Positions 4,026 to 62,628 of a DNA stretch of 64,000 bases are shown piece after piece. This DNA comes from Sphaerolaimus hirsutus (lineage: Eukaryota; Nematoda; Chromadorea; Monhysterida; Sphaerolaimidae). Numbering within the stretch: position 1 is the first letter of the stretch; every line of letters starts with the position of its first letter. The stretch covers positions 2,331,180-2,395,179 of the forward strand of contig OZ038457.1 in NCBI GenBank assembly GCA_964036195.1, written 5' to 3'. The position numbers were made by a program, and so were the translations under genes. The notes beneath the pieces were generated by a model. The model ran no database searches. It saw nothing but the letters and a program-made list of their open reading frames with translations, and had not been told where the DNA came from.

Positions 4026-4090
4026 GAATACAAATAATGTATATCGGTATCTTTAAAAACATGTCGATTACCCTGCAAAATCGCTGTTGT

Positions 4091-23580: not shown

Positions 23581-23763
23581 GTGGTGATTGAGTGGTGCCC
23601 ATTGTGGGCTGACCAGTGTACTCCCTGTCTCTGGCAAATTCTCTGGATGAAAGTGTGTATATTTTTAATTGTATACCGTATTTTCTCGAAATACCCCCCG
23701 GGGGTGATTGTTTCAGAGTGATAATTTTGAGGGGAGGTTAAACGAGGGGGGGGGGGTTATTAT

Positions 23764-30003: not shown

Positions 30004-30225
30004 TATAATTATAATGTGATAAGATAATTAATTGCGAAGTTTTGTGAACGGGGAAAGTAATAAGAACTCGTGCGGTCCAGTTGCCCGTGGGCAAAAGGGG
30101 TGCACGAGCTTCCTAAAAACACACACACACCTCACACACACTTCATACCTGTTGTACCTGGCTTCGTGCTGTTTGACGCGACGGCGATGATCGTAACGGC
30201 CAATTAATCAGCTAATTAATCAATT
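30004..30225 (-). promoter_or_regulatory. Spacer between pol and helicase with possible splice sites
   Basis: On the minus strand, ACAACAG|GTATGAAG offers a donor. A (TG)n tract and TTTTTAG|GAAGC offer an acceptor at 30112. The helicase ATG follows about 110 bp later. This suits expression from a subgenomic spliced RNA. A separate promoter cannot be excluded. Confidence 0.35.
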
Positions 30226-35900: not shown

Positions 35901-38900
35901 AAGTTCTGATACGTCTTTGCCGTTCGGGTAGAGGCCACACACCTGTGTGCGGCCGCACGATATTCTACCATATTTCGCTTGTAGATTGTCAGTGTCAATT
36001 TTCGTGGCCGTTCTAATGACGCCGTAGTGTCAACAATAGCCGTGCAATTGGGTAGAGGGGGGTACGTGTATAAATCGTAGTGATCTGTCAAGTCGCTGCA
36101 GAGCAGTGGAAACGAGGGCATGGTAGTCGCGCCCGCGCCCGGCAAAAAGGCTAATCCCATTATAATTAACCCAACTGCCAACACGAAAAACAGCGACTGT
36201 GCGACCTGAGGCATGTAGGGGGGTTCTGAATATGCGCGCGGCGCGGGGCGCACCCCTTCCTCAGTAGACAGAAAACCCATATACCTGTCTACCTGGTTGC
36301 TGGAGCCAGTACGTGGCGGCAGGGCGGCCGGCGTGGCGTACAGGAACGGGTCCAGGCTGATGTTCATGAGCACATCCAAGGGCACCTCAGTCAGCGTGTC
36401 CGAGTGGTCGTCTGCAGGGCAATTAGGCCACAACGTACAGTCCGTTTCTCTCAAATCATGCATTCCAATCCTGCGTAAAAAGGACAGCCAGGTAGTTCGA
36501 AACAGGTAACCTTTTTCAGTTCGCATGTATGCCCATGGTTTGATCCAGAATTCCCGCTCCTGCGCGAGCACATGCATTCCAGTAGTGCGCTGCTGCTCTT
36601 CGGGTGACTCTGGGACCAGTTCGTCAGGTTCCTCATCCTCTAATTCCAGGCCTTGCATCACAGGGATTAGTTTATTAACGGGACGTATCATCATGCAGCG
36701 ATCATCTTCGCGCACATGCATGGTCATTCCAGTCGTACTGGACACTCGCGTGGGGTTCAGCGACTCTACGTGTGGGTTACTTACTTGTACCGGTTGCATG
36801 TTATATTGTTGCATGCGCCCATCCGGTCCCATAGCCATCCAATTAGCTGGCGGCGTTTGATAAGCCATCATCTGCGGTTGCATGTTCATATCGCCAGCCC
36901 TCTGTACCGTCTGCGCTGGTTGTACAGGCATCGGCTGCGCTGGTTGCCACTGCGGGTATGCGTATTGCATGGGCACCATACCTGGCTGCATCGCTTGGGC
37001 TTGATTATTTCCCTGATAGCCACCACGTTGTCCTCCGCCGCGCCCACGTCCATTTCCTCTGGATGCTCCGCCGCCGCGGCTCCTTTTGAAATACTGTTCC
37101 CTTTGTTCTGGGGTTAGTTTGGGGCACTCATATCTGATATGCTCTTCAGAGCCACATTCCCAACATCCTTTGTCAAATTTTCGTGGGGGCAATTTAGGGG
37201 GGTCCCTATTCAATCCCAAAAGTTTACCTTCCAGCGCGCCCAGCTGCGCTAATTTCTTCGCTATTTCTTGGTGCACAGAGTCGAATTTGGCAACACTCTC
37301 CGTCATTTTCTGTTCCATCGTTTCTAACGTCTTGTCGGCCTGGGACGGCAGTCCAGCCATGGCGGGCATATTTAGCGCCATCAACCTGTCCATTACCTTG
37401 TCTGTAGCGCTGGCAACCACATCCTGTTTGGATTTTTCTCCCTTATTCTGGCTCTGTTCTGCTTCCAGAAAGCTCTCTTGTGCGCGTGCGTTGTCAACCA
37501 TCTCTTTCCAAGTGATAGACGCCGTGACAGGTACATTGCGCCGGATTTCATTTCTCAGTCCTCCATGAAATTTTATCATGCATGTGTCACCTCGTTTTTC
37601 ATGACCCATGCCTGGGTAGGCGCGTTTTATCAACTTCTCCAAACGTACCGCCCATTCCAGTACCGACTCATCTGCGCCCTGTCGCGTCTCAAAAATCTCT
37701 CTCTGTGCATGATGTTTGTCATTCGGATTTTCATAGAACTTTTCCAGCGCCTGCATCATGTCCTTGTAGTTCAGGTCGCGCAATTCTCTGTACCGCGTGT
37801 TGAAAATGGCTCTGGCACTGCCTTTCAAAAACAATTTCACCAGCGGCTTCCGCTCCTGTAACTTTATGCGCAGCGCATCACATACCGTGTCCCAGCTCCT
37901 TCTCCAGTCCCTGAAACCCTCATTTGGTTTGCCGCGAAAATACCCACATTGCTGTGCTAGGGCTGTGATGACTGCCGCATTACTTTGCTCTAATTGCCAA
38001 TTTTGTCCCGGGTCCGTGGGCCACGCCACTTCAGATGTAGCTGACGAGTTCCTGGAGGATGCTGGCGAACGGGATCGAGCGCGCCGCTGCGTAACAGTTC
38101 TCACCTGGTTCGTTCCAGCTGCCGGCAGGGGCGCCGCTGGTGCCGTTGATGACTGTAAGGGCGCTGCCTGACCATTGGTCAGCACTATCGGCTGCTGGCC
38201 ACTGGCCGGTGAATTTCCTCCCAACGTCGCATTCTGATTTTGTACGGCTTGGTTGTGCTGTTGGTACGCAGTCGTCAGGTCAGCTATATCGTCGCTATGT
38301 ACACTGTGGTGGGCTTCGAATTCCTGCAAAAAATGTTCCACCCTAGGTACCTCGGCGACTGGGTCACTTCCCCATAAATTCATAGCAATTTTAATTAGTG
38401 CCACCATACGCAAGTCCCCTGGTTCACCATTCTGTGAGAAAGCACCAACCGGTCTCGCTTGACTCATCATGTTTGCCCATTTCTTCGCCGCTGCACATGC
38501 CTTTTTAGGTGTCCATTGTGCACAGGATGGCGTTGTTTGCACCGGGTCCAGGTCCATTATGGTAGCTTGGTAAATTAAGTCCGTATTAGTGACCTTTGCG
38601 TACCTATCTTCCAGTGCCGGGGCCGCAGTCTGGTTCGCGCCGTTGTTTGTCATTCTGCTCGCGGGGCCGCTAATGATTATCACGGGGGGATTATTTGAAT
38701 TTTCAGTCTTAATTAACTGGCGTCTAGCCTTTGCAGTTGCGCTCTGCGATCTCGACTGGTCGCTCGATAAATTTCGGCTACTGTTACCTGACACGTCTCT
38801 CGGCGTCGAAGTGCTCTTCGGTGGGCTTAACTGCAGCGCCGGGGAAGTGTCTCCACTCTGCGTCGCTGTCTCCAACAGTTCCGCTACGGTATTTTCAATC

Positions 38901-39529
38901 ACGGGAAATTGATCTGCAGTAGCTCCAAGCTCAGCTGCAATCACAGGGTAATCACGTTGAATCGACGGCTGCCCTAGAGGCTCGCTGTCACCAACGTATC
39001 CGTCTGAACCGACTTCAGAACCCGATCGCACTCCAGGCGATATGGATGAGCTGCCCGCGCTCCAACCCAGTGTCCTCCGAAGCTTAGACCACTTACCTGT
39101 CTTACCTGCTTCCTTTCCTGCAGCTTGTCTGCTTGTCCCAGGCGCTTCTTCCGCTTCTGCGCTGGACGTTAGCTGCCGCGCCGCTGCCGGTACAGCTGGC
39201 GTCTTCCACTGACTGAAACTGTCTGGCGCAGGCCCTGCACCTTCAACCGTTGATAACCTGATTACCGGGGTGTCCTCAGCTGTCTGTCCAGACCAGCGTT
39301 GACTTTCACTCTCCTCTAGCGCTTCCGGCGCCTCTGTTTCAGGGTTAACCGAATCGTTCGACTCACTGTCTCCTGCTTGACTCTCAGCTGCAGCAAGTTG
39401 TGCGTCCACTTCTTGCCCAGCTTTCCGTTGTCGCGCGCGCCTTCGTGCTTGTTTCTGCTTCTCCAACGCAGCGTGCCAAACTTGTTCTATGGTGTCCCCT
39501 TGTAAGCTTGCTGGCCCCCTCGATCTCAA
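32933..39529 (-). CDS. gag-env-pro: Element A Gag, Env-like glycoprotein, protease and N-terminal RT in one frame
   Basis: 2,198 codons counted from 39529 (a TTG). The first ATG in frame is at 38653 (residue 293), so the start is uncertain. Residues 1-290 are Ser/Glu-rich. Gag core about 510-740, CCHC knuckle CWECGSEEHIRYEC at 789-802, then an RGG/Gln-Pro-rich stretch. About 1106-1690 looks like a viral envelope: hydrophobic segment 1110-1130, a Cys-rich ectodomain with NVS and NCT sequons, an RQKR furin-like site near 1395, and a C-terminal hydrophobic anchor at about 1655-1680. The aspartic protease LLDTGA follows (Asp1807), then the RT fingers (KPDGSKRMVIDYRRLN, about 2155). Env between nucleocapsid and protease departs from the gag-pol-env order. 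The frame ends inside RT, where the next frame takes over. Confidence 0.85.
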   Translation of the reverse strand: MRSRGPASLQGDTIEQVWHAALEKQKQARRRARQRKAGQEVDAQLAAAESQAGDSESNDSVNPETEAPEALEESESQRWSGQTAEDTPVIRLSTVEGAGPAPDSFSQWKTPAVPAAARQLTSSAEAEEAPGTSRQAAGKEAGKTGKWSKLRRTLGWSAGSSSISPGVRSGSEVGSDGYVGDSEPLGQPSIQRDYPVIAAELGATADQFPVIENTVAELLETATQSGDTSPALQLSPPKSTSTPRDVSGNSSRNLSSDQSRSQSATAKARRQLIKTENSNNPPVIIISGPASRMTNNGANQTAAPALEDRYAKVTNTDLIYQATIMDLDPVQTTPSCAQWTPKKACAAAKKWANMMSQARPVGAFSQNGEPGDLRMVALIKIAMNLWGSDPVAEVPRVEHFLQEFEAHHSVHSDDIADLTTAYQQHNQAVQNQNATLGGNSPASGQQPIVLTNGQAAPLQSSTAPAAPLPAAGTNQVRTVTQRRARSRSPASSRNSSATSEVAWPTDPGQNWQLEQSNAAVITALAQQCGYFRGKPNEGFRDWRRSWDTVCDALRIKLQERKPLVKLFLKGSARAIFNTRYRELRDLNYKDMMQALEKFYENPNDKHHAQREIFETRQGADESVLEWAVRLEKLIKRAYPGMGHEKRGDTCMIKFHGGLRNEIRRNVPVTASITWKEMVDNARAQESFLEAEQSQNKGEKSKQDVVASATDKVMDRLMALNMPAMAGLPSQADKTLETMEQKMTESVAKFDSVHQEIAKKLAQLGALEGKLLGLNRDPPKLPPRKFDKGCWECGSEEHIRYECPKLTPEQREQYFKRSRGGGASRGNGRGRGGGQRGGYQGNNQAQAMQPGMVPMQYAYPQWQPAQPMPVQPAQTVQRAGDMNMQPQMMAYQTPPANWMAMGPDGRMQQYNMQPVQVSNPHVESLNPTRVSSTTGMTMHVREDDRCMMIRPVNKLIPVMQGLELEDEEPDELVPESPEEQQRTTGMHVLAQEREFWIKPWAYMRTEKGYLFRTTWLSFLRRIGMHDLRETDCTLWPNCPADDHSDTLTEVPLDVLMNISLDPFLYATPAALPPRTGSSNQVDRYMGFLSTEEGVRPAPRAYSEPPYMPQVAQSLFFVLAVGLIIMGLAFLPGAGATTMPSFPLLCSDLTDHYDLYTYPPLPNCTAIVDTTASLERPRKLTLTIYKRNMVEYRAAAHRCVASTRTAKTYQNFWGDVTLEKFDSNPRSVGAAECEGMIKYHKCNNGPMTPVSDLDNAWDTQYPTNVSYSGHGLYCCKWVSETTPHCGLFRGEVRMRYGANTMQSTLGEVSKCNYELGACTLEDGSQLTWKPNPKAECPYEKWREMHGRIRQDIWLADDHTLSLSFRAHEEVESCGIKLWKSDQDIVVAPFAKAVIRSVRQKRAQGRPTLGIVSAGQLAASMQAVYETAEQTMRAQAVATCKNVQHFQEFVRLAMSEHATTTARWYMNDNEIIAKPAPDGFLVHKCFAVKTYEIMKEKKSPECYETVPVQVSVHGQNVTLHMNRLTNILHFQAIPGSCTNAHNRVVMLNGQWYKYLPEVGGLEHLPMYNTHSFPQKWQQEKVRDVHHQIFAATTMYNLSELLPTTTLNDVWHAYSIVRQITQGAEPRVESHMQRHRTLAKSVLALGWWDFDTWRTWLQVWIYLICALVTMQYLLAALMAAAPETAVTLVNRAKEKIKRRPKTEEKSNIIVELAEDRPSEQVKVRTVINPCVGMPSGMPALTGARRFPAIQYSINRKCDLEEESVCMITFSTEERDNIHQVANRREEIVHVYYSPSITITIDGREYRRCLLDTGAMRSLCNRDVLMRHKEKATKHDEVSPIGALRCAADSKLLVLGQMEVPVTMGNHTFGIVFQAVNGLAGEILIGADVLRHMVVDLPARELRIPTANAIIPFDNPDPEVQQRRIYAIVNEKIEILARHEALVTAKLSAPMDERLFTVMGLDTVGERCGVMAASAAYETSAPVFQVRCANVRNQPVVLQVGQRIAVVEPVDCVLKVKPGDPPAEWVKQCYDRDVCRQVQATEPPPKVAEDKLGPPLQVACPDGHVMEFTVPETLTDERREELKKVILQYKEAFARHKYDIGYSELVDYRLQLVDKKPIACRMYRLSLDDQQYLENHLRCLIEHDIVEPSTSPYCAPTLVVSKPDGSKRMVIDYRRLNAVLHAPQFPLPRLDETVESLCSCKYF

Positions 39530-39642
39530 TTCCCTTTGGGGTGACTCGTTATCCGTGAAGCCGTTTTTTGTAGAGGCGTTGATCAGGCGCCCCAGACAGA
39601 AAACTTTATGGCTTGCTTAGGAAACCACTCGCTGCTACCAGT
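39530..39642 (-). promoter_or_regulatory. Element A leader
   Basis: About 110 bp from LTR to the counted start. The frame is open from a stop just inside the leader through the gag region with no ATG until 38653. Confidence 0.5.
39621..39640 (-). promoter_or_regulatory. Element A primer binding site, initiator-Met tRNA-like
   Basis: Minus strand reads TGGTAGCAGCGAGTGGTTTC, two bases after the 5' LTR. The first nine and last seven bases match the complement of the 3' end of metazoan initiator Met tRNA (TGGTAGCAG and TGGTTTC); the middle differs. Inference from remembered tRNA sequence. Confidence 0.6.
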
Positions 39643-41324
39643 TGTCAGATATTTTACGTTTTTACTAATTTTACTACTTTCCGTTTTTACCACAAAAATA
39701 CGCCACTCGTCGAGTTTTGCCGCGGCGGAGAATTGCAAATTCCGGTCCCTTTGCGCTTCCACTTGCGTGCTTAATTAAATAAATAATTGGTTTTATGGTA
39801 CGGGGATGTTTACACGCAAATCAGGAACGGCGCCAGTACCCCTTGGGGTCCTGACAGTTCCTGAGGACGGACACGGCAACTTACCACTCCCTTTCGTAAC
39901 TGCTGCCAGCGGTTTTACTTCGATTAATTGTTAAAAAGCCGTAATTAATGCAAAGCCGAAATTAATAAAATTCAAATTAAAATTCAAGCAGTTAGTATGC
40001 TTCAGGGGGACCAAGTTGGGTTCACGGGAAACTTTATTTTAGCGATGTAGTCAGAGTCAATTTCACAATAGCTCAAGTGAGTCGTATAGCCTCTAGTGGG
40101 TGAAAAAATGTAAAATCAGCGCGTTTTATAATCACCAAAAACCTACCATAAGCGAAACGAATACTAAATCAAAGACACAACAATTAACCGTAATAAGCGA
40201 ATTAATAAGGCAAATTCAATGATCACTGGAAAACCGTAAACATAGCGTACGAGGCACAAGTAAATTAATTCAATGCGGGAAAAATAACTAATTAATCGAA
40301 CGGGTGCAAACGTAATTTAAATCAAGCGTAAAGTAACTGTGGTTATCACTGACGTAATTTAAAATGCAATTCATCTCAAAGGTGAGTGTCGTAAACTGGG
40401 TTTTATTCAGAGGTTACGGTACAAATTAGAGCAGGTGGTGTGACACGTGTTATCAACCTGCGCCCCTTTCGGTGAAAAATATTTTTATAGCGCGCCCGAC
40501 CAAGGCCACAGAAAGAACGCTCATTTGCAGGGTTTGTTCAAGGTTATTGCATTGCCGGGTAAGGGTTGGAACTTTGGGACTAAACACACGCCACAAAACA
40601 CTAGCACTTGTGAGTTCACCAATCACCCTAGGTGATGGGAATAATTAATTGGCACTACTGTGCTCTTCACTATAAACTGTGCTCTGCACGTGTCTTGCAG
40701 TCGCATGCCGACAATAATTGCCGTTTGCCACTTTTCCACCCATTACCTAGTCCTAAGTAAAAAGCACTTGGTCGGGGAATTTTCTGAATGTTATCTATCG
40801 GGGCGTCTAAGCATTTAACAGAGTCAACACCTGTTAGCTTAACCAGAAACATTAAAGTCTTTCTAACCCATTCCCAGACACTGCACCCTTTTAATCAAAA
40901 ATGTAAACTTGATGAAAGTCTAATAATTATAACGCTCGAAAGTACATATTGGGAAATGCAAAAGAAAAACGGAAGTATTCACTTAATTAACTCAAAATGC
41001 GGGTAACCTAGTTAACTTAATTAATGAATCACTAAAATAAAAATTAGAAATTAGCGTCACACGGGAAATAATTAAATGATTAACGGAAAAGAACCAATTA
41101 ATAAATTCATGGCCGCAGTAGTGTCCATTCGGGCGTACCGTCCTGGGGCTGCGGCTTCGTTGGCGGATTTGCAGTGCACAGCGAACCGCACGTTCACTGT
41201 GACTTCCCTGTGCACCGCGGGTCGTCATTCGGTCGCACATGGTCGTTCTCGAGTCGTCGGAGTGTCTGCGCAAAATTGTCGTTACGTTTTTACGCATGAT
41301 TAGTTAGCCATATTTCTACCTACA
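39643..41324 (-). repeat. Element A 5' LTR (right copy)
   Basis: 1,682 bp, matches 23764-25445. The TATA-like box is the complement of 40120-40131, and AATAAA is at 40033-40038 on the minus strand. Promoter for the element. Confidence 0.9.
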
Positions 41325-41653
41325 TTATTTCGCCAGAAATATTTTGAACCCCCAGTACTAAAATGTTGGTTGTAACGTACGCAGACGTCGAAAAATGCGA
41401 CAATAAGCACCATGTATAAGGGTCTATACACTTATTTCAATATGTAGATGGTGTAAACCATGTTCTGACGTGACACAGTCATTGTTTTTAACATATATCC
41501 GGATTGCCAGATCACAAACTGCAGTTTTGGCATGTACATTCTCTGTACATGCAATTTGGGGGGTATTTCTAGGGGGTGGGTACTTATTTCAAAGTCGCCA
41601 TTTTGAGGGGGGTATTTCGAGACAGGGGGGGGGTATTTCGAGAAAATACGGTA

Positions 41654-41803
41654 ATATAGTTTTTGCGTCAAATGGGTGTTCGAATTTCTCCCTCATACGG
41701 ATTAGATCAATTTTCGAATTCCTAAAGGAATTTGGATTAATTTTTGAATTTTCGCTACTAAGATTCTGACTTTTCTTATTCCATTGGAATGGGATTCAAG
41801 CTG
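41654..41803. other. No feature seen
   Basis: AT-rich spacer between the split T element and foldback E. Confidence 0.4.
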
Positions 41804-41911
41804 TAAAGCCGGAATTACAGCTCAGCGGCGTTTGACGTGAAATGATTACGTCGTAAAATTGATTACATCAAAATGGACAAAGGTACAGCATTGAAATTTC
41901 AGAATTAGATA

Positions 41912-42332
41912 CCGTATTACCTCGAAATACCCCCAGGGGGTTTATTATTTCGCCAGCAAAATTTGAGGGGGGGATAATTCGAGGGGGGGTTTATTCGAGG
42001 GGGGGGTCTATTATTTCGCCAGAAATTTTCGGAAATTCCCCATACTCGGACGTAAAAAAATCGATCAATTACATAGATGTCTATGTGTTTACAGGTATAT
42101 ACAACTGTATATACACATAAACCCTTCCCTAACGTCACTCAATCTTCAGTTTTAACGTGTGTTCTGCATTGTACAGATACAAACTGCGGTATTTGTCATG
42201 TACGTTCTCTTTACACTCAATGTTAGGGGGGGTATTTCGAGGGGGGGGTTTATTATTTCCTCAGCCGAATTTTAGGGGGGGTATTTCGAGGGGGGGGGTT
42301 AATTCAAGGGGGGATAATTCGAGGTAATACGG
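41912..42332. mobile_element. T element inside the left arm of E, TA duplication proven by empty site
   Basis: CCGTATTACCTCG ... GAGGTAATACGG, TA on both sides. The other arm of E (near 63020-63030, read on the minus strand) shows the same sequence with a single TA and no insert, so boundaries and the 2-bp duplication are directly visible. 421 bp, C/G tracts, no coding. Confidence 0.85.
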
Positions 42333-42397
42333 TAGTTCTAGTATACTCCGGTTACTTTACACCTTGCACGCGTGGTTCCCGCTGGAAGTGTGCTAAC

Positions 42398-42544
42398 TGT
42401 GCGGTTCCGCCTAATTTACCGTAACCTGCATTTTTGTTTCACTTGAATAATTCCTATTTCACTTAGAAATATTTGCCTTTCTTGCCTGCTGTAAACAACG
42501 GGTGATAAAAGTAATGACAGCCATAATATTTAATCTATGTTTTT
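42398..42544 (+). repeat. Element C 5' LTR, first part
   Basis: 147 bp identical to 62166-62312 of the 3' LTR. It ends in five T at the insertion point of B. Confidence 0.9.
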
Positions 42545-42691
42545 TGTTGTGAAACGGACTTTAGATTTATTGACATTTATGTGAATTGTTTTGATTTCCC
42601 AATTGAACATGATAAAAGTGATTATTTAGGTGAAAAGTTAGTTCGCAGGATTCCCTAATAAAGGCACTAAAGAAAATATAGACTCATAACA
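42545..42691 (+). repeat. Element B 5' LTR
   Basis: 147 bp, unusually short for gypsy. AATAAA at 42658. It pairs with 52427-52573. Confidence 0.9.
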
Positions 42692-42869
42692 CCTTGGTGG
42701 ACGAGCTTATCTTCTTTCTTTGCTTTGGTGGAGTGGGACTCAACTGTTGAACTGCATAATTTGGCTACTGCCATTTATGCCAGGAGTCTGCTGATCCTGG
42801 GCGTGGCTGGTCCATACCTATAAGGGTGAAAGCACACGTCCAATTAACTTGAACTTCTTTAGTGTCAAG
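42692..42869 (+). promoter_or_regulatory. Element B leader and candidate primer site
   Basis: TGGTGGACGAGC at 42695, three bases after the LTR, could be the primer binding site because it starts with the TGG complement of a tRNA CCA end. The tRNA is not identified. Confidence 0.4.
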
Positions 42870-45800
42870 ATGGAACGAACTCCACCGAACGTTTTGACAA
42901 GGTCCGCCCAACCTGATCTAGGTGAAGGCATGGGGGACTTTGAGTTTTTTGGTCATGTCGATGAGCAAAGACATGTCGCTGAGCGTGCCATGCACCGCAG
43001 GCCGCCGGCAAATAATGTGAATTTTAGAGACATGGTTAATTCATCATCAAATACGGTCAATTTGACAAACACCGATTTGGATACATTGCAGAACACAAGT
43101 TGCCACACCGCTGTGCAAAATACGCCAACTGGCTCAGGGAGAAATGGTCAGTCACTTTTGGACACACAGTCCCCAGTTTTGAACGATTCGGCAATTTGGG
43201 CCATTGGCAATACTGTTCCGACAGCTGGAAATATGGCAACGTCTTTGGGCAATACCCAAGTGAGTCAAAACGAGGTACAAAATTCGCAAATTTTGCAAAT
43301 GAATAGTCAATTGAATGAGTTGACGAATTTGGTGCAAGACATGCAGTTGACTGTTGTACAGTCTATACAATTGTCAACAGTGACGATGAATAATGAAATT
43401 GCAAACATTAAGGATCGTTTGGATTGTTTGGATAGGAAAAATTTGACAGAAAATTTGACAGAAAATTTGGTAAATACGGAAAATGTTGTAGTGACAAATA
43501 AAAATGTGGCCCCCATTTCAAGTGAAACGGCAAATGAATTACCATCGAGTGAAATGGTAAATGTATCAAATGTGTCAAGTGTGGGAGCGATGCCATTACA
43601 GGTGGTTATTTCTTCAATTCCAACATTTTCAGGGGAAGCGCCTGATAATTTCAAAGATTGGAGGGAAACGGTAGAACAGCATTTGTTCATGGTGCCCGAG
43701 GCATTGCTAGCCAGGTTTTGGTACATGATTTTTACGGCTAAATTAGTCTTGTCAGCCAAAAACTTGTGGAAATCATTCACCAAAGAACAAAAACAAAATT
43801 ACAAGTTCATTCTTTCGGAATTCGACAAATCATTCAAATCACACACGCAACGGCTGACGGTCACGCAATGGGAAAAACAATGGCAGCAGGAAAATGAAAC
43901 CTGCATGACATTTTGCATGCGGCTTGTTGGCAAGCTTCCAATTGAATATAAAAAAAGGCCTCAGCATGAGCAAAACTTTCTGATTTTAATTCGTTTTGTG
44001 CTGGGCGTTAAAAGGGAATTATTTGAACAAAATGTTTTGGTGACTTTACAAAAAGATATTGAAAACAAAATAATCACCGAGCCAAGGGAGGCAGCACAAC
44101 GTTTGGATAATTATTTATTTGAACTCTCGCGATTGGGGTTGAGACCAAAAACTTTTGTGAATCCAAAACCGAATTTTGTGACAAATAAATCAGCGTCGAA
44201 ACCACCCTTTGTGCGAGCCAATCAGGGTGCACAGTGCACATTTTGCAAAAAATTGGGCCATAAAGAAGACAATTGTTATGCAAAAAGAAATGCGGATAAT
44301 AAAAAACTGCCCCCCACTGCAGGTTATAGTGGAGTGAAATCGTTCGGGCCATCGGCAACGCACAACACGACTATGAAACCACAACCAGTCATGAAAGGCC
44401 CAATGACTCACAGAGTACATGCAAATTTGGCTACTTTGGTCGAGAACATGCAAACTTTGTCAGAGTCACTGCAGAATGTTTTGGTGAGTGATAACACAAT
44501 TTCTCAAATCAACGAAGAATTTAAGTTAAAAACAAACATTATCTCTCAGTCAACAGAAGATCTCGAAACAACTGAAATGAGTGCAGAGCAAAATGAGGAA
44601 CCTGGAAAAGACACTGGTGAAATTTCCGACGATAGTGAGTTCTTATCTCCACTATTTGAAATTCCGACAAAAAACTTGAATTTAAAATCAATTGCGAAAA
44701 AAATTTACTATCCAATCTCACAGGTGTCCACAAAGATGATCAAGTTGATTTGGACACTGCTGATATGGATACAAATTTCTGCAACGTGGTGCCAGGATTT
44801 TTGGAGTAAAAATTTGTGCAGCAGCGTTTCGAACTTTTTGAAAAATATAATTTACACATTACAATGTGTAGGTGAATTTTGTGCGGGTGCATTTACCTGT
44901 AACCCATTGTGTGATTTTTTGAACGTTTTATTGTCTAAAAGACAAATCACTTGGTTTACTAGTTTGAAAAATAAATTCAATGTAAAATTATTTACTTCCA
45001 ATGCACACCAATTAAAAAGTAATTTAATTACAACACCAATCACTTTGTTTGGACAAATTTGCAACTCAGTAATTGATACCGGTGCTACTAGAAGTGTAAT
45101 TAGTAAAAATTTATTGCAAAATTTACTTCAACAGGCAAAAATCACTACACCTTTGTGTAAACTTTTGGAACCGGCAAATGTTGTCATACACCATGCTGGG
45201 GGAATGGTTCCACCAGAGAAAATTAAACAAATATCTATTCCAGTCACACACACTGACCTACACGGTACGATCTACACCAGAGTTGTATCATTTTTAGTAA
45301 ATTTGTCGTCTACTGCTACCAATAAACTCCTAATTGGCCTAGATATTTTACCCTATATGAATTTTCTAGATACAATTAGAAATTATTTCGTTTTAAAAAA
45401 CCCAACTCAACCGAAAAATAAACTAAGAAAAAGAACTCAACAAAGTTCATTAGGATTATTCCTTCTTAAAAACTATGCCATGCCACCACACTCTGTAAAC
45501 AAAATAGAATTCTATTTAAAGGACACAAATACTATTCCATCACACCGCTCTGGCGTATGTGAATTTTCAATTTTGCAGAAAAATAATCCATGGATAGATA
45601 TATATGACATCTATTTTTCAGAACTAAACCAAACAGCTCTTGAAACGGTGGTTTTGAATAACACTGATACTACAATACAACTAAAGAAAAATATAAAAAT
45701 TGGAAATTTTTATACAAATGATAAAATTTACAATTTTACAACTGATCCCTCTAAATTAAAAACTGTGCAAAATCTGATAGCAGTAGAGGACAAATTACCG

Positions 45801-48605
45801 CCTAATTTTACACCTGTTGTCCCAGACTTTCCAATCACACAAATGGAACGCTTTCAACACATAAAAAATAACTTGCCTACTGATAACATGTGTAATTTAT
45901 CACAAACACAGAAATCAACATTTGATGATTTAATTAAGAAATTCCATGATGTGTTTTCATGCGGTGAATTTGATGTGGGTTGCACATCATTAGTAGCACA
46001 CTATATCCGTATCGATCCTTCACAAAAACCCATTAAACAAGCCGTCCGATATGAGGCACCACAAAAACGCCCATACATTCAATCCACAATTGAACAAATG
46101 TTAGCCAGGGGAATAATAGAACCCTGTGATTCTCCTTGGGCAAGTCCAATAAATGTAGTAAAAAAAGGCGAAAATGATTGGAGACTAACAGTAGATTACA
46201 GATTGGTAAATTTGATCTCTCAAATACAATCATATCCGCTACCACAAATTGGTCACATACTAACAGAACTTGCTGGTAGGAAAATCTTTTCTTCTTTGGA
46301 TTTAAAACACGGATTTTATAATTTACCTTTAGGGGATGAGCAAACAAAAGATACAACAGCTTTTGTTTGCAGTATGGGCCAATTCAGATTTTTGAGATGT
46401 CCAATGGGCGCTTGTGGTAGTCCAGCTTCATTCCAACGTCTTATGAATGTCATGCTGCGTGGTCTAGTGCAACCACATGAAGCATCAAGACCTTGGGTCC
46501 GTAGTTACTTGGATGATTTATTGATTACTACGGATACAATTGACTTGCATTTGTCAGCAATACAAAAAGTGTTTGAGAGACTTCGCTGGGCAGGTCTGAA
46601 ATTAGGACCCAAAAAGTGTTTATTTTTAGTGCATAAACTGAGGTATTTGGGCCATGACATTGACTCAAATGGCATAAAACCGGCTTTCGATCGGGTAAAA
46701 GCAGTGTTACATCAACCCGAACCTACCACAATGCAAGATTTAAGACGTTTTCTTGGTAAAACTACTTATTTCAGTCACTTTATCCCACGCTATGCGGATG
46801 TTTCAGCACCACTTTACCATGCTATTTCAGGAAAATTCCCAAAAAAGGGAATTACCCCTTTAACATGGACGGATGACATGAAAAAATCGTGGAAATTATT
46901 GAAAATTGCACTAACAAATCCGCCATGCCTGGCCCACCCACGATATGATGGCCGAGAATTTTTTATTCAGACAGATGCATGCAGATATGGTCTGGCAGCT
47001 GTTTTACTGCAAAAAGACGATAAAGACAAATTTCATCCTTTGGCATTTATCAGCAAACGAGTGCATGCTGAATATAAAAATTGGAGCGCAGCCATGCTAG
47101 AAGCATTAGCTGTTGCATATGCATGCAGACGATTTTCACCCATTATAGATGGCCAAAAAATTGTGATTCAAACAGATAATTCCGGTATTGTACAAGCCTA
47201 CAAGTCACCGAACGTATCCATTTTGGAAAGATGGTCTATGTACCTCCAAAGTACCATTTCCAGGATAGAACACAGACCAGCAAATATGAACAAAATAGCT
47301 GATCAGTTAAGTCGGAATCCAATAGACATAAATGATGTTGAGGATGATAAACTACTCACTGAAGTTTCCGACTTAATCGATACTATTCCTGGCTTGAACA
47401 ATACCGAAATGTCTTTTTTCTCAGAAATAAAAAATAGTAAATTTTCATGGGAAACAGAACAATCAAAAGACCCAAATATCCAAAAATATAAATTGGCCAT
47501 TCAAAATGGAGAAAATTTCAAAAATGCATGCATTATAGATAATATAGTTCATGTGTTAACTCCGCATCAAACTAACTGTTTTGTAAAATGGATACCACAA
47601 CATCTCAAAAATGCATTTTTGGCTCAAGCACATTCTGGTCTCTATGGGTCACATGGTGGAATTGAAAAGACCCTAGCTCTACTAACACAATTTGGCGCCT
47701 GGCCTTCAATGAAATCAGACATTATCAAATATTGTCAGCATTGCTCTGAATGCCATAGATTTAAAATACATAAACATGGAAAAGCGCCAATGTTACTAAC
47801 ACCAACCCCATCAGAACCATTTGAAACAGTTCACATAGATATCACCGAACTCCCGAAAAGTGGGAAATTTAAATATATGTTATTAATTGTCTGTGCGTTA
47901 ACCAGATATGCTGTAACTATTCCCTTGACTCACCATAAATCCGAGATAATTACTAAAATGATTAAAAAACATTTCTTTTATATTTATGGACCACCAGTTA
48001 AAATTGTAACTGATAATGGACCGGAATTTCTTTCTGCTAAATTTGCAAATATGTGCAAAGAATTCGATGTGACACATATTACAGGTCAAACGTATCATCC
48101 ACAAACTAATGGAATCGCTGAGAGGACAATTCAAACAGTTTGTAACATTTTACGAATGATACCTGGGAAAGAAAATTGGGTAGATAAAATATCTTTAGCA
48201 ACACTTAAATACAATATGGCAACAAACACCATTACAAAATTTCCCCCTTTTTTGCTAATTTACCATCGAATTCCCAGAATAAATCATTTCACTAGTTCAA
48301 TATTGAGCAAAGAAAATCCACAAAAAGTATGGAGATTCGCTGAGTTAAATACAGAAATGGCGAAACGAAAATACCTGTCTTGGTTCAACAACAACAGATC
48401 AGTAAAGTTTTTGGATAAAATTTTACCTGGAACAATAGTGATGATAAAAACATCAACACCACAAAAATTGGCAGAAAGATATACCGGTCCATTTTCTGTT
48501 CTTTCAGTTAAAAATAATGAAGCAACGTTGTCCGACATTTCATTGAATAACAAAAATGCCACACTAACAACACGACTAGAAAACTTGTTCATAGTACCCA
48601 AATAA
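42870..48605 (+). CDS. gag-pol: Element B Gag-protease-RT-RNase H-integrase polyprotein
   Basis: One uninterrupted frame. The first ATG is 42870; positions below count from the in-frame TTG at 42849. Gag core about 250-430 (PTFSGEAPDNFKDWRE). CCHC knuckle CTFCKKLGHKEDNC at 463-476. A hydrophobic segment at about 630-648 with following cysteines lies between knuckle and protease. Protease VIDTGATRS (Asp743). RT with YLDDLL (1220-1223). RNase H FIQTDACRYG (Asp1376). Integrase zinc region from His1595, catalytic D1664, D1722, E1758 (D,D-35-E), HPQTNGIAER. About 1,911 residues. Intact, so the copy may be competent. A single-frame gag-pol has no frameshift step to regulate the Gag:Pol ratio. Confidence 0.92.
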   Translation: MERTPPNVLTRSAQPDLGEGMGDFEFFGHVDEQRHVAERAMHRRPPANNVNFRDMVNSSSNTVNLTNTDLDTLQNTSCHTAVQNTPTGSGRNGQSLLDTQSPVLNDSAIWAIGNTVPTAGNMATSLGNTQVSQNEVQNSQILQMNSQLNELTNLVQDMQLTVVQSIQLSTVTMNNEIANIKDRLDCLDRKNLTENLTENLVNTENVVVTNKNVAPISSETANELPSSEMVNVSNVSSVGAMPLQVVISSIPTFSGEAPDNFKDWRETVEQHLFMVPEALLARFWYMIFTAKLVLSAKNLWKSFTKEQKQNYKFILSEFDKSFKSHTQRLTVTQWEKQWQQENETCMTFCMRLVGKLPIEYKKRPQHEQNFLILIRFVLGVKRELFEQNVLVTLQKDIENKIITEPREAAQRLDNYLFELSRLGLRPKTFVNPKPNFVTNKSASKPPFVRANQGAQCTFCKKLGHKEDNCYAKRNADNKKLPPTAGYSGVKSFGPSATHNTTMKPQPVMKGPMTHRVHANLATLVENMQTLSESLQNVLVSDNTISQINEEFKLKTNIISQSTEDLETTEMSAEQNEEPGKDTGEISDDSEFLSPLFEIPTKNLNLKSIAKKIYYPISQVSTKMIKLIWTLLIWIQISATWCQDFWSKNLCSSVSNFLKNIIYTLQCVGEFCAGAFTCNPLCDFLNVLLSKRQITWFTSLKNKFNVKLFTSNAHQLKSNLITTPITLFGQICNSVIDTGATRSVISKNLLQNLLQQAKITTPLCKLLEPANVVIHHAGGMVPPEKIKQISIPVTHTDLHGTIYTRVVSFLVNLSSTATNKLLIGLDILPYMNFLDTIRNYFVLKNPTQPKNKLRKRTQQSSLGLFLLKNYAMPPHSVNKIEFYLKDTNTIPSHRSGVCEFSILQKNNPWIDIYDIYFSELNQTALETVVLNNTDTTIQLKKNIKIGNFYTNDKIYNFTTDPSKLKTVQNLIAVEDKLPPNFTPVVPDFPITQMERFQHIKNNLPTDNMCNLSQTQKSTFDDLIKKFHDVFSCGEFDVGCTSLVAHYIRIDPSQKPIKQAVRYEAPQKRPYIQSTIEQMLARGIIEPCDSPWASPINVVKKGENDWRLTVDYRLVNLISQIQSYPLPQIGHILTELAGRKIFSSLDLKHGFYNLPLGDEQTKDTTAFVCSMGQFRFLRCPMGACGSPASFQRLMNVMLRGLVQPHEASRPWVRSYLDDLLITTDTIDLHLSAIQKVFERLRWAGLKLGPKKCLFLVHKLRYLGHDIDSNGIKPAFDRVKAVLHQPEPTTMQDLRRFLGKTTYFSHFIPRYADVSAPLYHAISGKFPKKGITPLTWTDDMKKSWKLLKIALTNPPCLAHPRYDGREFFIQTDACRYGLAAVLLQKDDKDKFHPLAFISKRVHAEYKNWSAAMLEALAVAYACRRFSPIIDGQKIVIQTDNSGIVQAYKSPNVSILERWSMYLQSTISRIEHRPANMNKIADQLSRNPIDINDVEDDKLLTEVSDLIDTIPGLNNTEMSFFSEIKNSKFSWETEQSKDPNIQKYKLAIQNGENFKNACIIDNIVHVLTPHQTNCFVKWIPQHLKNAFLAQAHSGLYGSHGGIEKTLALLTQFGAWPSMKSDIIKYCQHCSECHRFKIHKHGKAPMLLTPTPSEPFETVHIDITELPKSGKFKYMLLIVCALTRYAVTIPLTHHKSEIITKMIKKHFFYIYGPPVKIVTDNGPEFLSAKFANMCKEFDVTHITGQTYHPQTNGIAERTIQTVCNILRMIPGKENWVDKISLATLKYNMATNTITKFPPFLLIYHRIPRINHFTSSILSKENPQKVWRFAELNTEMAKRKYLSWFNNNRSVKFLDKILPGTIVMIKTSTPQKLAERYTGPFSVLSVKNNEATLSDISLNNKNATLTTRLENLFIVPK

Positions 48606-48687
48606 CAACCTACTAACTTTGTTGTCAAAAAATGAATCGCCAAAATCGTCATCGTCCCATAAAATAAACGGTCAATTTTTAACCATT

Positions 48688-50113
48688 CTACATTTCAAAC
48701 ATAAAATGGTTCAACGTGCGCCTATTAAACCAATCCATTTGAACAGGCGAAGAAATGTCACCGTAAACGGGAGCGACATATTTACTAGTTTCGTACTCAC
48801 CAGCCAAATGAGTGCCAATTGTCCTAATTTCATGGTCAATATGAATTTTTCCGGTCCAATCAATCATTTTTTCTTCAAAAAACTTTCCGGCAAAATCATA
48901 ATCATTCTGGTTGAGTCGCAATGGCATTTCATCCGTGTAAACCAGACGAAGGTCTTTTTCAAACATCCGCATGAAATTCGCCAAAGAGTTTTCCTGTAAT
49001 TACACTCAATTACAATTGACATTCTTATGCAAACCATTGAAGTAAAATAAAATTTACCAATTTCGATAAACAGATGTCCTTTGTCAAATTCACAATTTCA
49101 AATTTTGAAATTTTACATTGCTCCAACCGGACAAAGTCGCAAATCGCATTTAGACATTCTTGCGGAATAATTTTTCCCGCTTGAATAACAGTAATCTGAA
49201 ATAAATACAAAAACCCATAATTATTTATCACTTTGAAAACATTCTTATTTAAAAACACAAATTTGAAATTATCGCTAAAAATTCACCTTGCAACCGTTTT
49301 TCGCAGCTGGATACAACTGTATCATATCCAAATCTTTCAAATGCAGTGCTTGCATGTGCTCACATTCTGGTACAGTGCACAACTCAATCCACAGAATCCT
49401 TGAAGGAATGTTTATGCCATCACTTAACGTAATGGGCAAACATAGCGGATTCACGCGGAAAAATGTCTGTAAAACAGTAATTATGTTTACCAGAATTGCA
49501 AAAATAAAATCAGACATGAATATAAATATTTATATATAAATATATTTAAACGTCTTGTTTTTAATTTGATCTAAACAATCAATCAAAATCAAAATTTTAT
49601 ACCTTCGCACAACATTTGTTCACGTGGTCGGACTTTGAGCGCACTTCGTGTTCCTTGTCATCAAAATCAACAAATCTGATACATATTTCGTCAATTTTGC
49701 CCGACATGCGGCTACCCACAATCTATAAGAATGTGATAAATTCAACATTTTTCGCTCCAAAAACAGATTTTCAACAACGAAAATATCAAAACAACAAAAA
49801 TTGAATCCAAAACCGAAATTCAAAACCCCACAATAACCTGTGCATTTTCGAACTTCAACAACAGCATTTGCACCGCATCGGACAATTTCATAATGTCCAA
49901 ATTTTCTGCGTTCAACAACCACTCACGCGGTGTGGTACGCATTTGCCAATAATCGTCACATAAAACGTGGGGCTTACGCATCTCCAACTGCTCTCGCGCG
50001 GCATTTTTCAGACTTTTGCACGCTGAAAATTAATAATTCAAATTTAATCGTTGTTAAATTTGGTCAAATATTTGAAATTGTGGAATTGTTTTACCTCTAA
50101 TTAAACGCGACAT
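48688..50113 (-). CDS. Cargo gene B1: six-exon gene antisense to pol, unknown product
   Basis: Exons on the minus strand: 50095-50113, 49838-50022, 49603-49722, 49287-49466, 49058-49195, 48688-48993. All five introns (72, 115, 136, 91 and 64 bp) have GT-AG ends with TTTTCAG-like acceptors, and every junction keeps the frame (first intron phase 1, the rest phase 0). About 315 residues, soluble, no signal peptide or obvious motif. Segments include DDYWQM, a WLLNAENLDIMKLSDAVQML helix and a Cys-scattered middle. I do not recognise the family. It ends 82 bp from the pol stop, tail to tail, and starts 180 bp from gene B2. Because it is antisense, its introns would survive a genomic RNA intermediate unspliced. 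Confidence 0.75.
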
Positions 50114-50293
50114 CTTTTCTACTAGTTCAACAATTCCAGTTGAAATTTCGAATTTTTTCTTTTTTCGAAAAAGTAGTTATTTGGATACATCCCGGAATGT
50201 ACACAATAATATTCTGGTTCTCTAGTTACTGTTATTTAATCACAATTAAGCGAACAATAAATAGGGTGGCGAAATTGCAAAAATTGACTAAAA
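50114..50293. promoter_or_regulatory. Probable bidirectional promoter between cargo genes B1 and B2
   Basis: 180 bp between two divergent ATGs (50113 minus, 50294 plus). AT-rich, no clear TATA box at a standard distance. Inferred from gene layout only. Confidence 0.45.
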
Positions 50294-51669
50294 ATGGCGG
50301 AAAACTTGCCAGCAACGGATAAACTGAGCCAACAAATTTTCAATGGCTTTTGTTACACTATCCAAGCCCATGTCAACTCGTGCAGGCGATGTGGTCCATT
50401 TTTGAAGGACATTTGCAATGAAGTGGTGAAACGTGAGGAACAAAATAAAAATTTGGCGTCCAAATTGCTCAACACTAAAGATCAGTTTGCAAAAATTTCA
50501 ATTGCACATTCCGGGTGTGAAGTGGTGAAACAACAGTTGGCTACATTGCAACAAAAAGTAAATGAGGTCAATCATTTAAATCTCGTTTTATTTATAATTT
50601 GACTCGTTTTTAAAAAAACAACAACATAATTTAAATAAAAAATAAACCACTCTAAGGATGAAAATGAAAAATTCTGGCCAGTACACGTGGCACAGGGAAG
50701 AATTGGGCGCAGATTGCATGTAAATGAACAATCCGTGGCGCTAGATCATTGGTGTTGCACTGATTGCGAAAAAGCGGGAATTGTGCAATGTTGTAACGCA
50801 TCGAAAATGTTGGGACAAGTAAATAATTCATTTATGAATTTTATTTACATCAAAATTTTGAACAAATAAAAATTTGCACTTACATACTTTTAAGAAATCC
50901 AATGCCGACATGGTAGGGGTCATTGAACGGTTGAATTCATTGGTGGTGACTGGAACAGAACCAGGTCTCAAAGCACAAGTGACCATTTTGAATAACAACC
51001 CCACAATGTTCAAAATTCCGAAAAACAAGGGCACAAAATCACAAAAGCCACAAATGACAGAACCAAAGGGCTTGGCAAATTTATTACAACAGCATGAACA
51101 AGAGCATCCAGTGCAATTGTTCCATCACATCAAAAACAATTCCCAGAGGGGTGCTCAAGGTGAAATTGATAAATTACATGTTAAGCACGTTAAAATTCAT
51201 CTTGAATAAATTAAAAATGCCATCCAGGTGGATTTTTCAATCGTGGCAGGGGCCAATTCAAATCACACCGGTTCCACTGAAACAATTGACTGATTGTGAA
51301 ATTGGCAGTGACGAGGTGAGTTACTTTTATGTCAACTCTACTTTTGTGACAACTATCAAAAGTAATTGCAATCTCTCTGCAATCTTCAATGATAAAACAA
51401 GTTATTTTGATGACAAAACTCATTTTTATGTCAACTGCCATCCATTTATCATTTTATGTCAACTATCAACTAAATTCCCACTAAACAATTATTGGTAAAT
51501 TCAATAACACATCAAATATTTGCGCAAAAATTTTTTTTTTCAGTGGGAAGAGGCATTCAACCGGGCAAAAACGCTACCGGGTTTTGGTGAATTTGGTGCG
51601 GAATATGGGCAGAACAGAGAAGTGAAACCTCTCGAAAGAATTGCCATACCATTCGAGCCCAAAAAGTAA
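50294..51669 (+). CDS. Cargo gene B2: spliced gene with Cys-rich segments, unknown product
   Basis: Exons 50294-50557, 50657-50818 and 50895-51159 join in frame by GT-AG introns. They encode a CRRCGPFLKDIC start, a coiled-coil-like Glu/Gln/Lys stretch, a WCCTDCEKAG...CC cluster that could bind zinc, and a basic PKNKGTKSQKP segment. Further exons 51228-51315 and 51544-51669 join in frame with each other and end in a stop (…PFEPKK). The 3-to-4 junction, as I read the splice sites (51159|51228), is one base out of phase: it gives a short Gly/Arg-rich tail ending at 51288. So either this copy has a lesion, an unseen site is used, or the gene ends early. Family not recognised. Confidence 0.55.
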
Positions 51670-51734
51670 CTTGACTTAAGTTATTAAGACGTCACTTTAT
51701 TGTCAAAACAAATGCACTATTCTATAGACCTGTG

Positions 51735-52374
51735 ATGCACGACAGTGACATGTCTAGTAGCAGTAGCAATGTCATGGAAACCATGTCCCCGGAAATTTCC
51801 GCCATGGTGCAAGCTCTAGTGCAAAAAGAGTTGGCACAGAAATTGGCGAATTCAAATACAGTGACTGCACAAATGAGTGGGGTGTCCAATGCTAGTGAAA
51901 CGTCATATACCGCCCAACAGTTGGCTGCAATGGGTTTGCGGGAAAAATCCATTCAATACCAGGGAATTGACAAAGATGAGTTTGCCAACGCCATGGCGCC
52001 CATGCAAAACACAACCAATATCATGCTGTCAACTGTAGTGGTTGATGGTGGGTAAATTCTGATGTAAATTTAGAATAAATTAAATTCCCATTTTAAATTA
52101 TAATTATTTAAATTATACTTTTCTCCCCAAATAGATAAAATGGCTACGACTAAAACGTGCACCATCAAAAAGAATGTGGAAGAACCCATTCCACTCTCCA
52201 AATCTGAAATACACCTAATGAACGGTGGGTGTTATAAAAATATTTAGTTTAGGATTTCATTGACTGTTTTTATTGTAATTTAATTCTTTTTTCCAAATTT
52301 TAGATTCCCAGTTTGAAAAAGAGCCCGAAGCATCGTCATCGCAGCCGTACTGTCAGACCCCACCGCACGAATGA
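51735..52374 (+). CDS. Cargo gene B3: three-exon gene, 157 residues, unknown product
   Basis: Exons 51735-52047, 52135-52224 and 52304-52374. Both introns are GT-AG, phase 1, and the frame is kept to a TGA. The product starts with a Ser-rich patch, then a QALVQKELAQKLANS helix, and ends in an acidic Ser/Pro tail (EPEASSSQPY). No domain is recognised. It lies 66 bp after the last B2 exon and 52 bp before the 3' LTR, in the same sense as pol, so a spliced genomic RNA would lose its introns. Their presence implies that unspliced RNA is packaged or that the cargo is recent. Confidence 0.65.
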
Positions 52375-52426
52375 GTTTACATGGTCAAGCAAAATGATTT
52401 CGTTTTAAGTTTGTTTAGGTAGAAGG

Positions 52427-52573
52427 TGTTGTGAAACGGACTTTAGATTTATTGACATTTATGTGAATTGTTTTGATTTCCCAATTGAACATGATAAAAG
52501 TGATTATTTAGGTGAAAAGTTAGTTCGCAGGATTCCCGAATAAAGGCACTAAAGAAAATATAGACTCATAACA
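52427..52573 (+). repeat. Element B 3' LTR
   Basis: 147 bp, one difference from the 5' copy. Preceded by AGAAGG, a minimal polypurine tract. Confidence 0.9.
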
Positions 52574-52894
52574 TTTTTATTAATCTTTATAATTCTTTAT
52601 GTCAACCCGTTTTCTAACGACACGCGACAGGTGCAAAACCTGATATTTGCTTTAAAGTAGACATAATAAGCAATTTGCTCGCGTTTTGAAGGTTAAATCG
52701 CCCGTATGTAAGGCCGTTCTTGCCGAAAGAACGGCCCAGTCTACGACTACTGATATCTGATTTTAAATGATTACTTTGTTTGATAGAAATAAAATATAAA
52801 CCGAATATAACTTGAATAAATATTTGAATAAAAGCTAAGGTTTCCGCACTGTAGAACGCAGGAAAAATAACCCCAAATAGTGTGAAACTTTACA
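52574..52894 (+). repeat. Element C 5' LTR, second part
   Basis: Matches 62308-62628 apart from C52699 versus T62433. It carries an inverted pair GGCCGTTCTTGCC...AAGAACGGCC (a hairpin in R/U5 or U3) and AATAAA words. Confidence 0.9.
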
Positions 52895-62165: not shown

Positions 62166-62628
62166 TGTGCGGTTCCGCCTAATTTACCGTAACCTGCATT
62201 TTTGTTTCACTTGAATAATTCCTATTTCACTTAGAAATATTTGCCTTTCTTGCCTGCTGTAAACAACGGGTGATAAAAGTAATGACAGCCATAATATTTA
62301 ATCTATGTTTTTATTAATCTTTATAATTCTTTATGTCAACCCGTTTTCTAACGACACGCGACAGGTGCAAAACCTGATATTTGCTTTAAAGTAGACATAA
62401 TAAGCAATTTGCTCGCGTTTTGAAGGTTAAATTGCCCGTATGTAAGGCCGTTCTTGCCGAAAGAACGGCCCAGTCTACGACTACTGATATCTGATTTTAA
62501 ATGATTACTTTGTTTGATAGAAATAAAATATAAACCGAATATAACTTGAATAAATATTTGAATAAAAGCTAAGGTTTCCGCACTGTAGAACGCAGGAAAA
62601 ATAACCCCAAATAGTGTGAAACTTTACA
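62166..62628 (+). repeat. Element C 3' LTR, intact
   Basis: 463 bp. Preceded by CTGGGGAG, a short polypurine tract. Serves as the empty-site reference for insertion of B. Confidence 0.95.

Follow-up and report, generated by a model that had tools for sequence, protein, structure and literature searches.

Predicted intron-containing genes on both strands between pol and the 3′ long terminal repeat of a Ty3/gypsy-like retrotransposon from the nematode Sphaerolaimus hirsutus

A 64,000-nt stretch of the genome of the nematode Sphaerolaimus hirsutus (contig OZ038457.1, positions 2,331,180 to 2,395,179; hereafter the window, whose own numbering is used throughout) contains a Ty3/gypsy-like long terminal repeat (LTR) retrotransposon of 10,029 bp, element B (42545-52573), with 3.8 kb of additional DNA, which we call the cargo, between pol and the 3′ LTR. 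We find a spliced-coding signal on both strands of the cargo, on the strands that an earlier sequence-only reading of the window had named. The splicing of the cargo introns is predicted, and the models comprise an antisense gene next to pol and a sense unit, of two genes or one, next to the LTR. We give an even chance to the interpretation that element B is a Ty3/gypsy-like element with an accessory-gene module of its own, divergently laid out, between pol and the 3′ LTR. An element-owned module is suggested by the tight packing of the cargo, by the dependence of the sense unit on the poly(A) signal of the LTR and by a codon usage like that of gag.

The cargo lies inside one LTR pair and one target duplication. 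The two LTRs of element B differ by 1 mismatch in 147 bp, and the insertion site is the 5′ LTR of a BEL/Pao element (element A). The left flank (42398-42544) and the right flank, after removal of the TTTTT duplication, together equal the LTR at 62166-62628 with 1 mismatch in 463. Because the flanks rejoin to an intact LTR of element A, the limits of element B are fixed, and the claim of a bounded unit with 147-bp LTRs, a TTTTT duplication and an intact LTR as the empty site is borne out. The cargo (48606-52426) is exactly the space from pol to the LTR, since 48605 is the last position of the pol stop and 52427 the first of the 3′ LTR. Element B is a recent insertion; its gag-pol is fully open, and the copy is therefore young. 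No tRNA genes were found within the window.

The rejoined flanks alone leave room for a later insertion into element B. A nested mobile element, or filler of a double-strand break, might have entered this copy as DNA, in which case the introns never passed through RNA; we consider this quite improbable. In its favor, the two ends of the cargo share a direct repeat of 10 nt, ATCGTCATCG (at 48645 and 52332), and an inverted repeat of 12 nt, TCTTTTTCAAAC (at 48953 and 52311), each with a chance level that is a rough estimate. However, three of the four repeat copies are in predicted exons and none is at the edge of the segment, no longer exact repeat is shared between 48541-49100 and 51901-52430, both ends of the cargo tightly adjoin signals of the element, and no product is transposase-like. 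The sequence-only reading had named a second target duplication around the cargo as the mark of such an event; by self-comparison there is no clear one, and there are no clear terminal inverted repeats around the cargo.

To score spliced open reading frames (ORFs), we used an exon-chain finder with composition-normalized codon weights, trained without element B, with dinucleotide shuffles as the null and pieces of window positions 1-23000 as controls. If the cargo were non-coding, its chains of ORFs would have arisen by chance. GT and AG are indeed frequent, and random sequence gives chains of several hundred codons (the longest in the shuffles was 1311 nt), but the scores make this very improbable. 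On the antisense strand (48606-50293, minus), the best score was 42.3 against a shuffle maximum of 38.3, and it was reached by none of 500 shuffles and none of 62 control pieces; on the sense strand (50114-52426, plus), the best score was 47.5 against a shuffle maximum of 30.1, reached by 0 of 500 shuffles and 0 of 42 control pieces. Similarly, when element B was included in the training, the scores were reached by 0 of 100 shuffles per strand, and by 0 of 42 and 0 of 28 control pieces. In contrast, the opposite strands are unexceptional: of 100 shuffles, 79 reached the real score in one case and 8 in the other, and raising the intron penalty increased these counts to 91 and 16. The top-scoring chains, 1014 nt with five introns (antisense) and 1296 nt with four (sense), both differ from the gene models, and the comparison with shuffles and controls speaks for the region and the strand, not for the exact exons.

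The antisense model has 948 nt of coding sequence and five GT-AG introns, 64-136 nt long, all of which contain an in-frame stop. The GC content is 0.41 in its exons and 0.23 in its introns, and the exon-versus-intron contrast on this strand is above that of all shuffles and all 62 controls. The predicted protein has an isoelectric point (pI) of 6.2 and no transmembrane-like segment.

On the sense side, with seven predicted introns, we compared a two-gene and a one-gene version. The two-gene version is in phase, with the start of gene 2 (51217) inside intron 3 of gene 1 and the stop of gene 1, at 51280, counted by hand. Sense gene 1 encodes a protein of pI 9.3 with 10 Cys and an RG-containing C-terminal tail (RGRGQFKSHRFH). 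The one-gene alternative, joined at the exon ends 51110/51160, is open over 466 amino acids (aa), with a GC content of 0.43 in exons and 0.25 in introns, and 11 of the 12 cargo introns in this version contain an in-frame stop. It is conceivable, if somewhat unlikely, that the gene models are wrong to this extent, with one real antisense gene and one real sense gene that is either 466 aa long or broken by a small lesion; this would be compatible with the other interpretations of the cargo. With splice-site scores included, the finder ranks the one-gene joining first. In addition, a gene 2 that starts within an intron of gene 1 is an awkward arrangement, and in the last exon of gene 1 the in-frame score is not the best. 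However, the extra intron of the one-gene version is atypical (49 nt, 45% GC and no stop, where the other introns have 17-29% GC), the corresponding two-gene intron (51160-51227) has an intron-like composition and an in-frame stop, and the fully open gag-pol of a young copy speaks against a lesion. Because the composition of the one-gene intron is atypical, two genes are favored; our leaning is toward these, or toward a single gene damaged by a small lesion in the present copy. Thus, of the gene models in the sequence-only reading, the coding signal on both strands, possible GT-AG introns and the phase of the six-exon antisense and two-gene sense models hold up, with the exact exons provisional, while the split of the sense side into two genes does not stand alone, as the 466-aa single gene is also open.

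The cargo is packed closely into the element, with 82 nt from the pol stop to the antisense stop, 180 nt between the two start codons and 52 nt from the sense stop to the LTR. From the sense stop to the end of the element, AATAAA occurs once, at 52539 in the 3′ LTR. Moreover, B gag is the one, among seven gag, pol and helicase sets, whose synonymous codon usage is most strongly correlated with that of the two cargo genes (0.68 and 0.74). These observations also bear on a different origin, gene capture, in which element B, or one lineage of it, acquired two divergent host genes, either as DNA or through unspliced read-through RNA, and the genes are passengers without a role in transposition. 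This we judge unlikely. The introns on both strands resemble those of ordinary nuclear genes, the third-position GC of the cargo genes (0.46 and 0.45) is higher than that of pol (0.27; gag 0.41), their codon usage fits B pol poorly, and transduction of genes by LTR elements has been documented in the accounts we draw on (PMC7264820, PMC11963269). Nevertheless, margins of 82 and 52 nt leave little space for flanking DNA from the host, the sense unit relies on the poly(A) signal of the LTR, and the codon usage of the cargo is nearest to that of B gag.

Several observations weigh against an element-owned module of intron-bearing genes or against its details. The codon usage of the cargo genes correlates poorly with that of B pol (0.27 and 0.43), and the module may be private to this copy of element B. 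The GC contrast between exons and introns of the sense chain is ordinary, as the shuffle maximum is higher and 2 of 42 controls are as high. When the whole cargo was scored on one strand, the finder chains extended into the region of the other gene (78.6 and 83.0 versus 72.4 and 54.3 at the same penalty), and the finder therefore does not fix the gene boundaries. The in-frame codon score is that of the best forward frame in four of six antisense exons (exceptions being the 19-nt exon 1 and exon 3) and in three of four exons of sense gene 1 (all but the last), compared with five of five in sense gene 2 (one by 0.1), and for sense gene 1 overall one reverse frame is slightly higher (40.4 versus 39.7). 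With splice scores, the finder begins the antisense gene at 50190 rather than 50113 at all four penalties, and the middle antisense exons change at the two lower penalties; the 5′ end and the region of exons 3 and 4 are therefore provisional. None of eight poly(A) signal variants occurs within 388 nt downstream of the antisense stop. Finally, the functions of the cargo proteins, none of which has a known homologue, are all assigned by analogy, and the RNA binding proposed below for sense gene 1 is a guess from composition.

The earlier statement that the products are not recognized agrees with our searches, in which no significant match was found in Pfam, NCBIfam, PHROGs or PDB sequences, nor, for the antisense protein and the sense gene 1 protein, in a set of 5.8 billion proteins. 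In the latter set, none of 375 candidates for the antisense protein and none of 140 for the sense gene 1 protein had an expectation value (E) ≤10. This absence also counts against capture of host genes, although the set may hold no host proteins. Pfam gave one insignificant match to the cargo proteins, NCBIfam gave no match to the antisense and 466-aa sense proteins, PHROGs gave insignificant matches only, and nothing among the PDB sequences was below E 0.26. We regard as chance the two PHROGs matches to sense gene 1 (best E 0.11), the PDB matches to phenylalanine hydroxylase and others (best E 0.26), ribosomal L14e (E 0.46) and S6 (E 1.3), and the match of the antisense protein to Amdovirus NSP (E 0.054, below cut-off, 23 residues). 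An F-box-like identity for the antisense protein, suggested by nematode proteins, was dropped, as no library supports it. The last antisense exon (48691-48993, minus strand), folded alone, gave four helices with a mean predicted local distance difference test (pLDDT) score of 52 and no residue ≥70, and this model was not used.

No cargo protein has a transmembrane-like segment (the highest 19-residue hydropathy values in the three proteins are 0.97, 0.67 and 0.62), and Pfam gave no match of the cargo to a viral fusion protein. An envelope role is therefore unlikely, and we rejected an env-like role for the cargo on the absence of such segments. Within element B itself, sense residues 83-178 (50540-51002) align to the RNase H with a local score of 59 (shuffle maximum 52, 0 of 300), while against all of gag-pol the score of 72 was matched by 2 of 300 shuffles. 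The Asp that we take to be catalytic in RNase H is not conserved in these residues, and the match crosses predicted splice joins; the alignment is weak and is a lead only. Between the cargo and the gag portion of element B, similarity does not exceed chance level.

The remainder of element B is a single gag-pol ORF in the order gag, CCHC-like knuckle (by eye), protease, reverse transcriptase (RT, with YLDD), RNase H, integrase and a C-terminal GPF motif (by eye). Pfam matches above cut-offs are RVT_1 (E 2e-25), RNase H (E 1e-26), the integrase zinc-binding domain (H2C2, E 2e-15) and rve (E 2e-16), while those of the protease are under the curated cut-offs, with a DTG motif seen by eye. The order protease, RT, RNase H, integrase is that of Ty3/gypsy elements and is found in element B by Pfam (the protease below cut-off), together with the Ty3/gypsy hallmark of paired TG...CA LTRs and a short target duplication. 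By domain order and LTR structure, element B is thus classed as a Ty3/gypsy-like LTR retrotransposon, and the pol residues that we take to be catalytic are invariant across 10 aligned sequences (element B and nine relatives). A protein search with gag-pol residues 900-1560 listed 22 matches, all distant, of 23-34% identity, the best-scoring being a protein of the pseudoscorpion Cordylochernes (33%). BEL/Pao is an animal group, and we call element B animal-type because of the pseudoscorpion match and the BEL/Pao neighbor. In viral contigs, tblastn confirmed no relative of B gag-pol, of the antisense protein, of the 466-aa sense protein or of the 10-row gag-pol alignment, a result that says little about animals.

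Features of element B and of its insertion site
Feature	Position	Strand	Basis or details
Target-site duplication TTTTT	42540-42544 (left), 52574-52578 (right)	.	
5′ LTR of element B, TG...CA, 147 bp	42545-42691	+	sequence self-comparison
Putative primer-binding site TGGTGGACGAGC	42695-42706	+	3 nt past the 5′ LTR; by eye
gag-pol, single ORF, 1911 aa	42870-48605	+	open frame, Pfam
Antisense gene, six exons, 315 aa	48688-50113	-	in-phase model; exons 50113-50095, 50022-49838, 49722-49603, 49466-49287, 49195-49058, 48993-48688
Stretch between divergent start codons, 180 nt	50114-50293	.	candidate bidirectional promoter
Sense gene 1 (two-gene model), 247 aa	50294-51280	+	exons 50294-50557, 50657-50818, 50895-51159, 51228-51280
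Sense gene 2 (two-gene model), 233 aa, pI 4.8	51217-52374	+	exons 51217-51315, 51544-51665, 51728-52047, 52135-52224, 52304-52374
Candidate polypurine tract, purine-rich AGGTAGAAGG	52417-52426	+	just 5′ of the 3′ LTR; by eye
3′ LTR of element B, 147 bp	52427-52573	+	AATAAA at 52539
Intact 3′ LTR of BEL/Pao element A	62166-62628	+	reference without element B

If the cargo is a module of the element, its layout suggests how it might be expressed. The antisense gene and the sense unit may fire divergently from the 180-nt gap; alternatively, the sense mRNA might be spliced from the LTR leader, which has a donor-like site at 42825, to an acceptor-like site in the gap, from which an exon would begin at 50226. 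In either case the sense mRNA would end at the poly(A) signal of the LTR. By analogy with Grande gene23, the Retand ORFs and HBZ, which we describe below, the antisense protein would most likely be a regulator of element expression. By analogy with Rev or CERV, sense gene 1, which is basic and Cys-rich with an RG tail, could bind the genomic RNA containing the seven sense introns and get it exported and packaged unspliced.

Introns that lie in the same direction as the element are lost when spliced sense RNA is reverse-transcribed. A young copy (LTR difference 1 in 147) that still has seven sense introns therefore implies that unspliced RNA is what gets copied, if the sense introns are real. 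In the proposed scheme, these seven introns would survive retrotransposition because unspliced RNA is exported and packaged, and the five antisense introns would survive because the splicing machinery is blind to them in the sense genomic RNA. Acceptors ending in AAG are found in three of the seven sense introns (one of them the doubtful intron) and in none of the five antisense introns; this is consistent with weak sense splicing, although the numbers are small. We put forward only tentatively the fuller proposal that a divergent module of about 12 introns on both strands is a standing feature of the whole family, kept through repeated cycles of RNA copying by an element-encoded factor that exports and packages only unspliced RNA.

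A close parallel in layout is with Cer1, a Ty3/gypsy element of Caenorhabditis elegans, in which a spliced five-exon mRNA encodes CERV, a protein needed for nuclear export of the unspliced genomic RNA (PMC10309623, PMC3315495). CERV is described there as containing a Cys-rich segment that may be a zinc finger, and as lacking obvious homology beyond nematodes (PMC10309623, PMC3315495). On these accounts, Cer1 and element B both have a single gag-pol ORF and an extra protein from a multi-exon sense mRNA (predicted in B), and in both, spliced RNA and unspliced genomic RNA must coexist. However, exons 1-3 of CERV use the frame and the start of gag, whereas the predicted sense unit of element B, which has an ATG of its own and seven introns, is confined to the region downstream of pol, and B has a predicted antisense gene, of which none is described for Cer1 in the text of PMC10309623 and PMC3315495 that we draw on. 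The comparison of element B with Cer1 and CERV is by description and concerns layout.

HBZ is a spliced antisense gene of human T-cell leukemia virus (HTLV) and, like the predicted antisense gene of element B, is found near the 3′ end of a retroelement; the HTLV antisense promoter is in the 3′ LTR, whereas the predicted antisense start of B is 2.3 kb from the LTR and is followed by five predicted introns. HTLV-type antisense genes are cited in two accounts of plant elements (PMC11963269, PMC7264820), according to which, in Retand, Grande and RIRE2, the stretch that follows pol up to the 3′ LTR is long (2.9-6.6 kb in Retand, compared with 3.8 kb in B) and contains antisense ORFs of obscure origin. 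Retand, like element B, also has sense ORFs in this region, likewise of obscure origin, and gene23 of Grande has its own promoter (PMC11963269, PMC7264820). These elements differ in being a plant lineage and in being described as having ORFs, with the word intron occurring 0 times in the main text of either paper. The TRP28 domain of the Retand antisense ORF (PF04195) had no match in the cargo at E up to 10 in the Pfam search, in which the HMMER filters drop most matches above 0.1.

Extra genes after pol are also reported for LTR elements of bdelloid rotifers, where ORF3s typically come from spliced messages (PMC5408684). Unlike the cargo of element B, the ORF3s include, by that account, recognized enzymes and env-like proteins, and intron occurs 0 times in its main text. 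Penelope elements have moved intron-containing host genes, and the abstract of PMC3846280 sets Penelope apart in this from all other retrotransposon types; as described there, Penelope resembles element B in that introns are kept through a retroelement, but it is not an LTR element.

The ingredients of the proposed module are thus known separately, as the spliced accessory gene on the sense strand of an animal gypsy element, rotifer ORF3s, plant antisense ORFs and Penelope introns. Among the matches listed from the open-licence literature, no title or start of an abstract mentions multi-intron genes on the two strands of an LTR element. The sequence-only reading had called intron-bearing cargo in a Ty3/gypsy element unusual; this needs narrowing, in that a spliced sense accessory protein is already known from the nematode element Cer1, whereas about 12 predicted introns on both strands of one animal-type element do fit the description. 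If the proposal is correct, an LTR element that keeps seven sense introns needs a route to replicate from unspliced RNA, and element B would join Cer1 as a second animal system in which to study the nuclear exit of unspliced genomic RNA. Spliced-sense and antisense accessory strategies, which are known from separate elements, would be joined in one compact unit, and annotators would have cause for caution, as intron-bearing ‘host genes’ may be retrotransposon genes.

Other elements and repeats were noted in the window. The BEL/Pao element A (42398-62628, interrupted by element B) has 463-bp LTRs, CTAAC on both sides, a DUF1759 gag and a Peptidase_A17 domain, and it has a C-terminal extension past the integrase that may be env-like (by eye). 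Element C (23763-41324, minus strand) has identical LTRs of 1683 bp (1683/1683). Its 2227-aa ORF contains gag, then a match to a Monjiviricetes fusion glycoprotein (E 2e-6, just under the Pfam cut-off), then a weak protease match, followed by RT-RNase H-integrase and by a separate 1331-aa ORF with an AAA_12 helicase-type match (E 8e-25) that adjoins the far LTR. Both features, the glycoprotein match ahead of the protease and the helicase downstream of pol, seem unusual. In the gag-pol of element B, two hydrophobic stretches (44736-44792 and 44877-44933; residues 623-641 and 670-688, hydropathy 1.46 and 1.35) with several Cys are found between gag and the protease, the same place as the glycoprotein match of element C. 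Self-reverse-complement stretches, of the foldback or hairpin type, are found at 4090-5220 (75% identity), 5363-5876 (89%) and 14389-14829 (72%). A tandem-repeat-like block at 19108-20649 has many overlapping self-matches, the longer ones among the matches listed being of 73-79% identity, and G-rich repeats of the type GGGGGGGTATTTCGAGGGGGGG occupy 41551-42337, with related copies near 2.6-3.5, 12.5-12.9 and 21.9-22.3 kb.

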